This document shows, one piece after another, positions 12,618-17,542 of a DNA stretch of 22,557 nucleotides. The notes under the pieces are model-generated. The model saw nothing but the letters and a program-made list of their open reading frames with translations. It had not been told where the DNA came from and did no database searches. The translations under genes and the position numbers were made by a program. Each line of letters opens with the position of its first letter. The stretch's first letter is position 1. This DNA is from a virus: IMG/VR virus record IMGVR_UViG_3300034374_003289, positions 1 to 22,557 of that record. One strand, given 5' to 3'.

Positions 12618-13478
12618 TTAGTCAATAACAGCATCTGTAGTGATTGCAACACCATGTAGGTCTTGTAGTTCACCAACAGCATATGTCATAGAACCAACAA
12701 TTTCAGTTGCTCTTAGAGAAGCATCTCTTTGAGTTTCAATTGAAATGTCTTTCTTAACAGCATATGCAATCGCATCTGGATGCATCACAGCACCTACATA
12801 TGCACCAGTGGAATCACCAGTTACAACAGCAGATTCGTATAAATCTACGCCTGCGATACGACCCACGAAGCCTTCTGCAAGAGCAGCATTACCAATGTCA
12901 CTTAGTGCATGGTTGATTGCTGAAGCACCTGAGTTAGTTAATTGCTTCTTAAGGTTATACATTTGGTTTGGATGGAATACACCAACATATGGTCCCATTA
13001 CTGAGTTTGCTCTTAGGTTAGCAACAGCCTGGAAGATCAAGTCAGCAGTTAATTCTGGCTGAGTTGCAGCACCAATAGTAGTTGAAAAACCACTGAATAG
13101 AGCAGCAATATCTTCGTCAACTTTCTTAGCAAGACTCTCACCAATGATACGACCAATGCTTGCAGCAGTGTCGTCATTAGCACTATCACGAGCAGTGTCA
13201 GTTAGTGTGACCAATGCCGCAATTTCGTCTGCGTCGAAAGTTTTTTCAGTTGCAGTAACAGCAACATTAGTTGCGTCTGTGCCTTCACCTGATACAAGTG
13301 AAGAAGTTGCAATAGTTGGGTAGATACCCACTTTTGCTTGTTTGCCTGGCTGTCCTGTAAGATTAAAGTTTCTTACTAAAGGACGCATGAAGCCTCTTTC
13401 CTGCATAGTGAATAGTGCAGCCTGCTGAACGTCACTAAACAGGGCGGCTAAAGTTGTTCCAGTTGTTTCGTTTGCCAT
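12618..13478 (-). CDS. Major capsid protein (HK97 fold)
   Basis: This 286-residue protein lacks the long N-terminal delta domain of self-scaffolding coats. Recognisable segments are VGIYPTIATSSLVSGEG, TFDADEIAALVTLTDTARDSA (the E-loop/spine region), VGVFHPNQMYNLKKQL, IAGVDLYESAVV and the C-terminal LRATEIVGSMTYAVGELQDLHGVAI. They fit HK97-fold coats of scaffolded phages. It follows the scaffold gene by 33 bases, with AGGAG 7 bases before ATG, and is followed by its own terminator. The call is firm; the exact family is not. Confidence 0.9.
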   Translation of the reverse strand: MANETTGTTLAALFSDVQQAALFTMQERGFMRPLVRNFNLTGQPGKQAKVGIYPTIATSSLVSGEGTDATNVAVTATEKTFDADEIAALVTLTDTARDSANDDTAASIGRIIGESLAKKVDEDIAALFSGFSTTIGAATQPELTADLIFQAVANLRANSVMGPYVGVFHPNQMYNLKKQLTNSGASAINHALSDIGNAALAEGFVGRIAGVDLYESAVVTGDSTGAYVGAVMHPDAIAYAVKKDISIETQRDASLRATEIVGSMTYAVGELQDLHGVAITTDAVID

Positions 13479-13504: not shown

Positions 13505-13522
13505 TAAGGATTTACATCCTTA
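13505..13522. repeat. Hairpin spanning the scaffold stop codon
   Basis: TAAGGAT-TTAC-ATCCTTA is a perfect seven-base inverted repeat overlapping the stop codon of the scaffold gene, 27 bases upstream of the capsid start. There is no T-run. It could affect mRNA processing or coupling between scaffold and capsid translation. Confidence 0.45.
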
Positions 13523-14219
13523 TACCTTTGGACTTCATCAACTCTTTGTAGATTTTTCTATCTTCCGCAGAGTTCATGTTTAAGGATGAAACATCTACTT
13601 TGCCAGGTGTTGAACCACTGGAGTTTGCGATATTGCTGGTAGTGCCTGAACCATTTGGACCTGCACTTATGAAATGTGGATTGGTTTGAAGAAAATCTTT
13701 AACCAAATCATCAACACCCATAGCAACACCTTTGTCAGTGTATCTAACATTGCCATTGTCGTCAAGCACTTCAACATCACCGGCATCGCCAAGTCTAATG
13801 TTGTTTTTCAGCAAACTCACAACCTGTTTAGGATTGATTGCTTTGCCTGCACTCGCCGCATTTAACAATGCACCGTCGACTTTGATAGAGGTCAATTCCT
13901 TTTGCAGTTGATTGATAACACCATCTTTCTTTTCAACAGTTGACTTAAGGATAGTTTCAAATTCTCCTCTTGCCTTTTGTTGTTCAAGACGTGCTTCTTC
14001 TTCTGCCGCAATCATTTCTCTATATTTGTTGACGTCAACGCCTTCAAATTGTTTAGAGATCTTTTTGCGTTCTCTATCTAATCTTTCCTTGACTATTCTG
14101 TCAAGTTCATCCTGGCTAAAAGCCTTTGTTTCTTCCTGGTTTTCTGCTATAAAGTCCTGATTATTTTCAGCAGTAGGCTCGCCAGTTGCCTGTTCTGTTT
14201 GAACTTGTTCTTCGTTCAT
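13512..14219 (-). CDS. Capsid assembly scaffolding protein
   Basis: This is a 235-residue acidic, helical protein. It begins with a disordered Glu/Gln-rich tract, then FSQDELDRIVKERLDRERKK, a segment typical of GP20/DUF4355-type scaffolds. A Glu/Lys/Gln coiled coil follows to about residue 120, then GKAINPKQVVSLLKNNIRLGDAG and DKGVAMGVDDLVKDFLQTNP. The C-terminus is short and basic (IYKELMKSKGIRM), like the coat-binding tail of many scaffolds. The start at 14219 has AGGAGG 6-7 bases upstream. A longer version from 14252 has GAGGG too close to its ATG. The gene directly precedes the capsid gene. Confidence 0.86.
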   Translation of the reverse strand: MNEEQVQTEQATGEPTAENNQDFIAENQEETKAFSQDELDRIVKERLDRERKKISKQFEGVDVNKYREMIAAEEEARLEQQKARGEFETILKSTVEKKDGVINQLQKELTSIKVDGALLNAASAGKAINPKQVVSLLKNNIRLGDAGDVEVLDDNGNVRYTDKGVAMGVDDLVKDFLQTNPHFISAGPNGSGTTSNIANSSGSTPGKVDVSSLNMNSAEDRKIYKELMKSKGIRM

Positions 14220-14284
14220 TTGTATCCTCCTGTTATGGTAGAAGTCCCCCATTCCCTCGTAATTGAGTAAAACTTATACACCAA

Positions 14285-14292
14285 TATTTATC
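14285..14292 (-). promoter_or_regulatory. Late promoter core GATAAATA before scaffold/capsid
   Basis: The minus strand reads GATAAATATTGG, matching the NATAAATA core of T4-related late promoters. It lies in the only sizeable gap (about 105 bases) between the small genes and the scaffold gene. The start is predicted at G14279, about 60 bases before the scaffold start. It could raise capsid expression over packaging genes. Confidence 0.42.
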
Positions 14293-14325: not shown

Positions 14326-14388
14326 CTAACGGCCTCCACGACGGCCACCTCTTTTGCCGCCTTTTTTCTTCTTTTTTTTCATAGCCAT
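14326..14388 (-). CDS. 20-residue Lys/Arg/Gly peptide
   Basis: This tiny gene reads MAM, six Lys, GGKRGGRRGGR, so 11 of 20 residues are basic and nearly all others are Gly. AGGAGG lies 8 bases before the ATG and overlaps the stop codon of the previous gene (TAAGGAGG), one of the best ribosome sites in the window. The peptide would be disordered and bind nucleic acid, like a protamine or Arg/Gly-rich tail. It sits between the portal group and the scaffold gene, so it may enter the capsid with DNA or help packaging; this is inference. It falls below usual gene-finder limits. Confidence 0.7.
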   Translation of the reverse strand: MAMKKKKKKGGKRGGRRGGR

Positions 14389-14401: not shown

Positions 14402-14578
14402 TTACATTCCCATTACTACGGCAATTAACTGTGCAAACACAGCCAATGTCACAGCACCAAGAAATCTTTTGATCATCAACATATCTTTTTCCATATGCTT
14501 TAAATGATTGTCTAATACCAAATCTATTTTTTGTTCTAAGAGTGATAACCTCTTGTCCAAATTTTCGTATTCTTTCAT
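14402..14578 (-). CDS. Small one-TM coiled-coil membrane protein (XhlA/holin-like layout)
   Basis: This 58-residue protein begins MKEYENLDKRLSLLEQKIDL, an amphipathic helix with heptad-like Leu/Ile spacing. It continues VLDNHLKHMEKDMLMIKRF and ends in a hydrophobic segment (LGAVTLAVFAQLIAVVMG). The order of coiled coil, NHL-H motif and C-terminal membrane span is shared with XhlA-type hemolysin/holin partners and small membrane proteins of many marine phages. The ATG overlaps the previous stop as TAATG, with AGGAG 9 bases upstream. It may be a lysis accessory or membrane anchor, but its place beside portal genes leaves other roles open. Confidence 0.78.
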   Translation of the reverse strand: MKEYENLDKRLSLLEQKIDLVLDNHLKHMEKDMLMIKRFLGAVTLAVFAQLIAVVMGM

Positions 14579-14820
14579 TAGTCTTCACTCCTGTAGATTG
14601 TATCTGCAATTTCACCTCTTCTTGCCCTCACAAGATGGTAGATGTTTAACAGATGTTTTCGTGCCCTCACGCCTGCTGAATTATTCCATCTTTTCATAAA
14701 TTTTTCATTTTCCTGATAGTATGCTTTGAGTTCACGCATAAGTTCTTCGTGGCAATCTGTAGGTTGCACACGATAGGTAAACTCTTTCACCAAAACATCT
14801 ACATCAGGTTCATTACTCAT
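14578..14820 (-). CDS. Hc1/histone H1-like small basic protein
   Basis: This 80-residue protein has a helix of about 30 residues (HEELMRELKAYYQENEKFMK), followed by NNSAGVRARKHLLNIYHLV and a basic RARRGEI. The AGxRARK-L-x-L...R.EI pattern is the one found in Hc1/histone H1-like proteins of Chlamydia, Bacteroidetes and phages, which coat or bend DNA. The start chosen is ATG 14820, which overlaps the portal stop by eight bases and has GAGG about 10 bases upstream. A longer reading from 14859 has no support. It is next to the portal gene, so a DNA-packaging or ejection role is possible. The family call rests on motif resemblance only. Confidence 0.7.
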   Translation of the reverse strand: MSNEPDVDVLVKEFTYRVQPTDCHEELMRELKAYYQENEKFMKRWNNSAGVRARKHLLNIYHLVRARRGEIADTIYRSED

Positions 14821-16300
14821 CTGGTGAATCCTCTGTGTCTTCTTTTTCAAACAATTCATTTAGTTCTGGATGCAGATCCTGTATCTGTTGATCAGTGTAT
14901 CCTGCATTGACCATTTCTCTTAGATGTGTGACTAAATCAGTAGGTGAAGTAACTGGTCTATGTTGCACAGCATCCAATTGAGGCTGTGTGGTTAGTTCTT
15001 CATATCTGTCTTCGTCAACAATCAGTGCCAACATTTTGTTTTCAACTTCTTTGTTTAGGATGGGTGAATCAATACCTGCTTCTTTGGCCAGTTTCAACAT
15101 ATTCATATCATTGTATTTGTCTTGAATGTTAAAACTGTCTGGGTATTTTACAACACCATTCCATACTGTGCCTTGCCATAGGCTGTATATACGCCATATC
15201 TGTTCTTCTGCGTGTTCTAAGTTGTCTGCTTTTTCTGCAAGACGAGCATTTAGAAGTTGGAATTCTGTAGCAAGTGCAACACCACTTAATCTTCTTGTTT
15301 CAATTGAACGAATACCACCCATGTGTGTCATTCTATCTATTGCTTCAACTTTTTTATTAATAGATTCAAGTATGCCTTCAATACCTGAACCATTTGGTTC
15401 TAATAGATATGGTTTGACACTTTCTGGTAAATCGTCTGGCACTTGTATAACTGATCCTGCACCTGCCGCAGCCTGTGTGGATGCAGTTTTAACAAGACTT
15501 GGATGATTTGAAATACGAATTAACTGTTCCAATTCACTTAGTTCATTGTAGATTGATTTGCTCATATCTGCAACATCACCCACGTCTGAAATACCTATGC
15601 CTTTGATTGGAGACCTTTGGCTGTAAACACACACCGCAGGAATTATACCAAGTGCATTTGGTATTTCTTCCATTATGATTTCTTGATCGTCATCATAGGC
15701 AACAACCTTGATTCTATCAAGATAGTATTTTCTAAATGTGTCACGACCATTGTTTCTACCTTCATATAATTTTAGGTATGAAAGATAGTAGTGTCCGTTT
15801 GCGGCTCTTTGATATTCCCAGTCTAAAACATTTTCTGGAGTATACAAACTCATATAAGGACGAATGCCTTGATCAAGTTCTTCTGCTCTTGTGAATGCAA
15901 CAGTGTTGGGTTTGTCAATCACACACCATATGTGTCCATACACACTTGAATATGTGCTGACATCACGCATAACACTGTCAAAACTTCTACCATCTAAATC
16001 TGTGTCTTGTAAAAAAGCATCCAATGCTGAATCATTATCAATGTTTCCAAATTCTCTTTTAGGTGGCATACGGAATAAGAAACTGTTGTAGATTGCAACA
16101 ACGGCTTTAACATGGTTATCATAAGGAGTATTATCTAATCTTGTTTCATATTGTTCTCTGTTTTCGAAAATATAACTTGCAAGATATTCTCCTTCCTTGT
16201 AAGAATGTCCACCACTGTAGGAATCAATAAGGAACTTCCATCTTTTGATAAGTTCTTTCCATTGTGGGTGGGCTGATATAATTTGACTATTTTTTGACAT
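14813..16300 (-). CDS. Portal protein
   Basis: This 495-residue protein follows the large terminase gene, the canonical place for the portal ring through which DNA enters the head. N-terminal HPQWKELIKRWKFLIDSYSGG and TPYDNHVKAVVAIYNSFLFRMPPKRE resemble DUF4055-type portals of marine phages. Later segments include YSSVYGHIWCVIDKPN, MSLYTPENVLDWEY and a long helical stem with MTHMGGIRSIETRRLSGVAL. The C-terminus is acidic (EKEDTEDSPDE). AAGGTGG lies 6 bases before the ATG. Size and order make this call firm. Confidence 0.9.
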   Translation of the reverse strand: MSKNSQIISAHPQWKELIKRWKFLIDSYSGGHSYKEGEYLASYIFENREQYETRLDNTPYDNHVKAVVAIYNSFLFRMPPKREFGNIDNDSALDAFLQDTDLDGRSFDSVMRDVSTYSSVYGHIWCVIDKPNTVAFTRAEELDQGIRPYMSLYTPENVLDWEYQRAANGHYYLSYLKLYEGRNNGRDTFRKYYLDRIKVVAYDDDQEIIMEEIPNALGIIPAVCVYSQRSPIKGIGISDVGDVADMSKSIYNELSELEQLIRISNHPSLVKTASTQAAAGAGSVIQVPDDLPESVKPYLLEPNGSGIEGILESINKKVEAIDRMTHMGGIRSIETRRLSGVALATEFQLLNARLAEKADNLEHAEEQIWRIYSLWQGTVWNGVVKYPDSFNIQDKYNDMNMLKLAKEAGIDSPILNKEVENKMLALIVDEDRYEELTTQPQLDAVQHRPVTSPTDLVTHLREMVNAGYTDQQIQDLHPELNELFEKEDTEDSPDE

Positions 16301-16303
16301 CGT

Positions 16304-17542
16304 TTACCACCTTTTTGTTCCAAAAGTCCAGTGACTGAGTTCTTCTTGTTCAACCCGTGTCTTGATTGGGAACAAGTAGTCACAAAGATAGCCAACAGCA
16401 TCTGCGAAATGGTCAAGTCCTGAATCTTTATCTATTTGATTTGTATTTTCTTTGTATGTTAATCTTTGAAGACTATCAATGGTATGCTTACATTTAGGAT
16501 CAACTAATAATTTTCTTTCACCAGTTGCTGATCTAAGCATAGCATTGACAGCATTTACCCTATCTCTGATAGGTGTATGATATTGTCTTGATTTGACTGT
16601 AAAGCCTGCATTCTGTAGTATTGAAAAATCTGTTTTACCACCTGCAGAAGTTTTCTTTTGTCTTGAGGCAGGATCTGGATACACAACAATTTGACTGTTT
16701 GGATATCTGTGTTTGATTTCGTCTACTACTTCTTCTGTGTTTGATCCACGCATCATTATCTCGTCAAATATATGTATGCTATTTTTCGATACCTGTGCAA
16801 TAGTTGTGGCCATGCCGCCAATGTTGAAGTCTTGTCCTACATGGATAACACCTATCTGTGGATCTGCCAAAGGTTTTACAGTGCCTTTGTAATCAAAGTT
16901 ATAGTATACAACACCTGAATAGGTGTTGAATGTTGCGAGATATTCCTGTGCGAAGGTTTTGTCGTCCAGGTCTCTCCTTGCGGCTTCTATTTCTGTTTCA
17001 GCAACCATTCCACCTTCAACAGTGGTAAATTGCCATGCGTCCCAATCGTTTTCATTTAGAGCCTGTGTGTATAGTTCATGACTCCAACTGCCAACGCCTT
17101 TGGGTGTCCCGCAGAATAGTGCCTTTCCTTGCTTGTCAGATAGTGTGGGACGAATAACTTCTGTCCAAGCCTGGCGTGGAACATCTTGATACTCGTCTAT
17201 GACGACAAAATCTAATCCAACACCACGAAGACTGTCAAAATTGTCTGCACCTTTTAATTGTATCATTGAACCGTTTCTAAGCACCAAAGTCAATTCTGCT
17301 TCATTCTTGGTCTTGATCCAACGAAGGCTGTTTAATTTAGATACCAATTGCAACCATACAATGTTTTTTGACATTCTGTATGTGGGAGCAATGTATTGTA
17401 TATTTGCACCTGGGTTTTGTGCGGCGTGCCTGCATATTTCACGGATACACAGATGCGTTTTTCCAAAACGACGTCCCGTCACAAGACATTTGAATCTTGC
17501 TGGACTATCTGCAACCGTTCTTTGTGGCACACTTAATGGCAT
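16304..17542 (-). CDS. terL: Terminase large subunit (packaging ATPase and nuclease)
   Basis: This 412-residue motor cuts concatemeric DNA and pumps it into the prohead. The ATPase part has Walker A GRRFGKT at residues 23-29, Walker B FVVIDEYQD near 110-118 and a coupling motif CGTPKG near 148. The RNase H-like nuclease part has acidic residues in HVGQDFNIG (near 233), VVYPDPA (near 283) and DHFADAVGYL (near 385). All expected catalytic acids seem present. The ATG overlaps the small terminase stop as TAATG. It is of the short T4/SPP1-type length. Confidence 0.95.
   Translation of the reverse strand: MPLSVPQRTVADSPARFKCLVTGRRFGKTHLCIREICRHAAQNPGANIQYIAPTYRMSKNIVWLQLVSKLNSLRWIKTKNEAELTLVLRNGSMIQLKGADNFDSLRGVGLDFVVIDEYQDVPRQAWTEVIRPTLSDKQGKALFCGTPKGVGSWSHELYTQALNENDWDAWQFTTVEGGMVAETEIEAARRDLDDKTFAQEYLATFNTYSGVVYYNFDYKGTVKPLADPQIGVIHVGQDFNIGGMATTIAQVSKNSIHIFDEIMMRGSNTEEVVDEIKHRYPNSQIVVYPDPASRQKKTSAGGKTDFSILQNAGFTVKSRQYHTPIRDRVNAVNAMLRSATGERKLLVDPKCKHTIDSLQRLTYKENTNQIDKDSGLDHFADAVGYLCDYLFPIKTRVEQEELSHWTFGTKRW

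Follow-up and report, generated by a model that had tools for sequence, protein, structure and literature searches.

A reading frame of 20 codons between the portal and scaffold genes of a virus raises two questions: is it a gene at all, and what could so short and so basic a product do in a phage head? We analyzed the whole stretch of DNA that contains it, 22,557 nucleotides of IMG/VR record IMGVR_UViG_3300034374_003289, hereafter the window, and compared it with relatives.

A polybasic reading frame between portal and scaffold genes

The head-gene region of the window is arranged as follows:
12618..13478 (-): major capsid protein (MCP; phrog_267, phrog_544)
13512..14219 (-): scaffold protein (phrog_206, E 1.6e-17), net charge -8, first 60 residues -7
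14326..14388 (-): tiny polybasic ORF, ATG to TAG, MAMKKKKKKGGKRGGRRGGR, 20 residues, net charge +13 (K+R), zero acidic residues
14396..14403 (-): Shine-Dalgarno (SD) sequence AAGGAGGG of the tiny ORF, about 8 nt before its ATG, containing AAGGAGG
14402..14578 (-): 58-aa protein, hydrophobic near its C-terminus, absent from PHROGs and Pfam
14578..14817 (-): 79-aa helical-hairpin protein with a Pfam Hc1 (histone H1-like) match just over the curated cut-off, net charge 0
14813..16300 (-): portal protein (phrog_145, E 3e-61)

Reading of the minus strand showed the 20-codon K/R/G-rich ORF exactly as the original prediction had described it: ATG GCT ATG, six lysine codons (AAA AAA AAG AAG AAA AAA), GGC GGC AAA AGA, GGT GGC CGT CGT, GGA GGC CGT and TAG. 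In agreement with the same source, AAGGAGGG (14403-14396) and the TAA stop (14404-14402) of the upstream 58-aa gene have two bases in common. The flanking genes, which had been called portal and scaffold, were confirmed as such by profile search, along with the terminase and capsid genes. The likely scaffold start is the ATG at 14219, which has its own AGGAGG; the start listed at 14252 is an in-frame ATG further upstream. When both strands of the window were searched under a strict rule (ATG, SD sequence, 10-40 aa, K+R of at least 45% and at most 1 acidic residue), the tiny ORF was the sole match, and the dinucleotide-shuffled window gave 0.03 matches per 22.5 kb.

Conservation and selection among relatives

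A portal-protein query recovered 30 IMG/VR contigs, one of which (L011) ends at the portal gene; nearly all had a tiny basic ORF, preceded by a ribosome site, between the portal-linked small genes and the scaffold gene. An alignment of 13 scaffold proteins, used as a second query, gave 80 loci. By a mechanical rule, an SD-led, K/R-rich ORF of 15-37 codons with almost no acidic residues was found in the portal-scaffold interval of 74 of these 80, and the count rose to 77 of the 78 informative loci once relocated or longer versions were included. The two uninformative loci have 25 nt (L043) and 407 nt (L110) of upstream DNA, and the latter is too little because the close relative L100 has its ORF 479 nt upstream of the match. 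A relocated version of 36 aa lies directly after the portal gene in L104, with which L105 was grouped by its like scaffold match, and the version in L102, 34 residues long, includes acidic residues. The tiny ORF was absent from one of the 80 scaffold loci, L098. Within the 55 loci of at least 5 kb (365 kb), the strict rule gave 51 matches, 47 of them between portal and scaffold and 4 elsewhere. Near-duplicates are many: among the 53 sampled loci, the distinct ORF sequences number 43 and the distinct peptides 37. Some loci match the pattern without being this gene and were rejected, namely L129 and L138 (an 87-aa repeat protein), L135, L142 and the L145 type. In L005, L009 and L108, the tiny ORF is in frame with an upstream ORF of the phrog_31267 type and an internal ribosome-site-like sequence is kept, suggesting that the tiny peptide can also be the basic tail of another small protein.

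A genome-collection search yielded a single close relative only, the MAG contig L116. The one complete GenBank relative, DSL-LC06 (OR003941.1), is a 29.8-kb circular genome from a Dishui Lake assembly, placed in the proposed family 'Nanhuiviridae' (PMC10611076). It contains MKYKKKKPGRGGKKY at 16540-16587, preceded by AAGGAG, and this is the sole looser-rule match in its 29.8 kb. The stop overlaps the next start (TAATG), and the ORF is unannotated in the record, just as automatic annotation had been expected to miss it.

Among relatives, the length changes by whole codons (15-37), with the start, stop and ribosome site retained; 35 of the 37 distinct peptides are free of D/E, and net charges run from +8 to +15. 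Pairwise comparisons gave synonymous to nonsynonymous changes of 10:0 for L109/L113 (1.7 synonymous expected), 8:0 for L054/L092 (1.9), 10:1 for L044/L066 (1.7), 5:0 for L069/L079 (0.8) and 6:4 for L090/L099 (1.6), and some pairs had no synonymous excess, e.g., L097/L109 with 2:3. The pairs share ancestry and hence are non-independent, and their overall direction is consistent. Judged from these sequences, the synonymous bias and the acid-free composition are characteristic of a peptide that is translated and for which charge is important. The ORF is very short and of low complexity, as a chance ORF or a sequencing artefact might be, but conservation, position, SD sequence and synonymous bias all oppose such an origin and refute it, leaving it scarcely credible. 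The conservation check proposed beforehand was run, and the refutation by absence failed, both the ORF and its ribosome site being kept in relatives. The sequence comparisons make it nearly certain that the tiny ORF is a real head-module gene, overlooked by annotation. A gene of 15-37 codons, below the usual gene-caller size, is near-constant in the head module of this uncultured aquatic phage group, and a rule for finding such genes would be an SD sequence, 10-40 codons, K+R of at least 36-45%, almost no D/E and a place in the portal-scaffold interval.

Outside this group, no such ORF was seen in the head region read in the Pelagibacter phages HTVC026P, 111P, 112P and 202P, whose portal and scaffold proteins are related, suggesting that the peptide is not essential to this kind of head. 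These phages have a MuF-looking intervening protein and no peptide; replacement of a MuF-like gene by the peptide was considered and dropped because L131 and L134 carry both, in the order portal, protein whose C-terminus looks MuF-like by eye (with no profile match in support), tiny ORF and scaffold. When IMG/VR was scanned for MAMKKKK preceded by a ribosome site, 18 contigs matched, 15 of them with this head module (scaffold or portal profile), and a scan for MKYGKKK found 39, most of a different marine lineage (L141-L179). In that lineage, a gene for a 21-29-residue MKYGKKK...Y peptide lies upstream of a GroES-like gene (Cpn10, E 3e-14, L157), and also upstream of a roughly 300-aa acidic protein rich in Glu and Lys, which by composition only may be a scaffold. 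Four MKYGKKK contigs have a 12-residue version after an ORF matching terminase in L170. The recurrence of similar peptides beside a terminase-like ORF in one further lineage and beside a GroES-like gene in another counts in favor of the packaging role proposed below. Common descent of the MAMKKKK and MKYGKKK peptides is not claimable, because the pattern was peptide-derived and the sequences are of low complexity; the ..RGGK/R and ..GKKY types are likewise low-complexity and beyond sequence-based homology testing. Profile searches with ten variants against PHROGs and Pfam, for which HMMER filters are weak with such low-complexity peptides, gave no family match, nor did one variant match PDB sequences.

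Transcription unit and scaffold leader

Two further elements lie between the tiny ORF and the scaffold gene:
14285..14291 (-): ATAAATA, resembling a T4/cyanophage late promoter
14236..14267 (-): a pair of small hairpins (CUC..GAG; UGG..CCA) within the 5' leader of the scaffold gene (14219-14280), found by eye, ahead of the ribosome site

The T4/cyanophage late promoter is NATAAATA (PMC2984593). Further ATAAATA sites in the window are at 1097, 1458 and 18300 (-). In 231 kb from 24 relatives, this motif occurred 47 times on the coding strand and 0 times on the other, 41 of the 47 being outside ORFs of 90 aa or more, and the TAAATA before the scaffold gene was invariant in 30 aligned relatives. 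Because the tiny ORF abuts the preceding gene and lies upstream of ATAAATA, it most likely belongs to the terminase-portal rather than the scaffold-capsid unit. The operon membership originally claimed on the strength of the overlapping ribosome site holds in this form, the terminase-portal operon being the apparent one on the evidence of those two features.

The apparently complete genomes of the group, L180 (DSL-LC06) and L181-L184 (with terminal repeats of 153 bases in G001, 33.8 kb, and of 123 bases in G002, 30.0 kb), contain virion-type genes almost exclusively. A Pfam search of these genomes for DNA polymerase A, DnaB helicase and sigma-70 region 2 found none of the three families. The absence of these three families and the T4-like late promoters raise the question of whether these phages depend on a co-infecting T4-like phage.

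The hairpin stems vary by lineage with apparent compensation by eye (CUAC/GUAG, CUGC/GCAG and CACC/GGUG; GGUG/CACC, UGGU/ACCA and GAGU/ACUC). Thermodynamic z-scores are modest (mean -1.25), the case resting on this by-eye compensation, and Rfam gave no match in the scaffold leader of the window and one sub-threshold match elsewhere. RGG/KR-rich peptides generally bind RNA. By analogy, in principle, with lambda N and boxB, the arginine-rich peptide could act on the two leader hairpins and set scaffold and capsid translation. Its RGG/KR-rich composition, the conserved leader with apparently compensating hairpins immediately downstream, and the pelagiphages that are without both peptide and hairpins are consistent with such a regulator. 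However, phylogeny confounds this co-occurrence, L104 combines the peptide with a scaffold start inside another gene and no clear leader, and K-rich and RGG types meet similar hairpins; we consider RNA regulation quite unlikely.

A cis-acting leader peptide or coupling device that controls the scaffold gene, e.g., by poly-Lys stalling, would also suit a short ORF with lysine runs and an SD sequence, just upstream of the scaffold gene in most relatives. Its position is not fixed, however: the distance to the scaffold gene ranges from about 60 nt to about 2 kb (L104), and genes or long stretches intervene in L014/L016/L017, L032 and L100. The promoter-like element that separates the two genes, and selection on the whole peptide beyond any stall motif, likewise disfavor cis control, which we regard as highly improbable. 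In L104, the order is portal, tiny ORF, other genes, Hc1-like gene and scaffold, and intervening genes were found in L014, L032 and L100; since genes can intervene before the scaffold and the ORF moves within the interval, action in trans is preferred over a leader peptide.

Function of the peptide and comparison with known systems

With no fold to predict and a conserved charge, binding to nucleic acid or to acidic head partners is the simplest reading, and the gene order favors head assembly or packaging. Our best explanation, to which we give a chance slightly short of even, is a nucleic-acid-directed role in head filling or packaging; the DNA condensation originally suggested is plausible. 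The ORF would be translated beside the upstream stop, within the terminase-portal transcription unit, into a 20-residue, presumably unfolded polycation of net charge +13 that would act late, in trans and by charge. It would bind nucleic acid, with the phage genome as the likeliest target, and probably also the acidic prohead interior, and would most likely be carried into the head or be active there, easing DNA entry or packing as microvirus J does. Assuming one copy per capsid subunit and about 415 subunits (T=7), 415 x 13 charges against the 59,622 phosphates of a 29.8-kb genome would neutralise 9%, suggesting that the peptide could tune the DNA, this being too little for full condensation alone. 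Tailed phages usually neutralise their DNA with polyamines and Mg2+, which counts against the proposal. Should DNA or the prohead prove to be the target of the peptide, few dedicated head proteins of tailed phages would be smaller.

Composition and position fit a DNA or packaging role and also a cofactor for the acidic scaffold or an RNA-binding peptide; as PHROGs and Pfam lack the family, the function is one that we infer. As an assembly cofactor, the polycation would bridge or neutralise the acidic scaffold N-terminus, the portal or the capsid lining in the prohead core and be lost on maturation, in the manner of a minimal T4 core protein, DNA contact being unnecessary. The gene lies between portal and scaffold, the scaffold N-termini are acidic (first 60 residues, net -3 to -8), and T4 has abundant small core proteins, some of them dispensable (PMC9958956); the composition, however, suits nucleic acid equally, and this role is possible, if doubtful. 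The peptide could instead be host-directed or lytic, either as a membrane-active cationic peptide or as an inhibitor of host nucleic-acid functions, and in the window its gene adjoins that of a small hydrophobic protein. It nevertheless has no hydrophobic or amphipathic segment and sits in a head operon, and in many relatives the slot of the hydrophobic 58-aa gene is taken by different, unrelated small genes with the peptide retained, which makes this very unlikely.

The packaging role that we prefer can be set beside several known proteins. The portal-scaffold interval is a hot spot of small basic proteins, gained and lost among relatives (phrog_38321, phrog_28338, phrog_7595, phrog_2423 and phrog_2859; L007 6778-7473, L104 2152-2835, L023 7944-8412). 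Like the tiny ORF product, phrog_2423, phrog_31267, phrog_7595 and phrog_28338 are small, basic and encoded in this interval; they are, however, about 40-100 aa long, with recognisable profiles and a patchy distribution, whereas the tiny ORF is shorter and nearly universal.

The Hc1 plan is a helical domain with a basic tail; here, the helical domain is a neighboring gene and the basic peptide a separate one. The 79-aa product matched Pfam Hc1 (PF07432) with 24.0 bits against a cut-off of 23.5, 11 of 13 relatives matched at E<=0.01 (best 6.2e-10), and the tiny ORF product did not match this family. AlphaFold2 predicted a confident helical hairpin for the Hc1-like protein (pLDDT 89.8), and a fold search with the model gave weak helical-hairpin matches only, none at E<=0.001. 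Of 79 scaffold loci, 67 carry the gene, and those without it are mostly contigs with little upstream DNA. A strict dependence of the peptide on it was dropped, as L090, L091 and L099 keep the peptide without it. Unlike Hc1, the window protein is neutral (net charge 0) and contains no lysine-rich DNA-binding tail. The pairing of an Hc1-type domain with a separate basic peptide is suggestive, the two genes not always being together. They could form a minimal chromatin-like pair, in which the helical protein and a protamine-like tail peptide with a gene of its own, both made beside the portal, would load onto DNA or the prohead and organise dsDNA in a tailed-phage head; we consider this unlikely. 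Other large aquatic phages have been reported to carry Hc1 homologues, for which genome compaction was suggested (PMC12619734).

The tiny ORF shares its place between portal and scaffold with the T4 gp67 and gp68 genes. Together with the internal proteins, gp67 and gp68 are small T4 head-core proteins (PMC9958956). These T4 proteins are larger and partly protease-processed, and no sequence relation to the tiny peptide was found.

The J protein is a component of ssDNA microviruses, where its partner is the F coat protein. In phiX174, J coats the DNA at about 120 copies per RF (PMC13386984). A search of ten variants for the J family profile in Pfam gave no match at E<=10, HMMER filters being weak at such low complexity. 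The tiny family nonetheless has J-like traits (15-37 aa, 35/37 without D/E, net +8 to +15), and like phiX174 J, its members would be very small, highly basic phage proteins with a part in genome packaging, here in a tailed dsDNA phage with scaffold and terminase.
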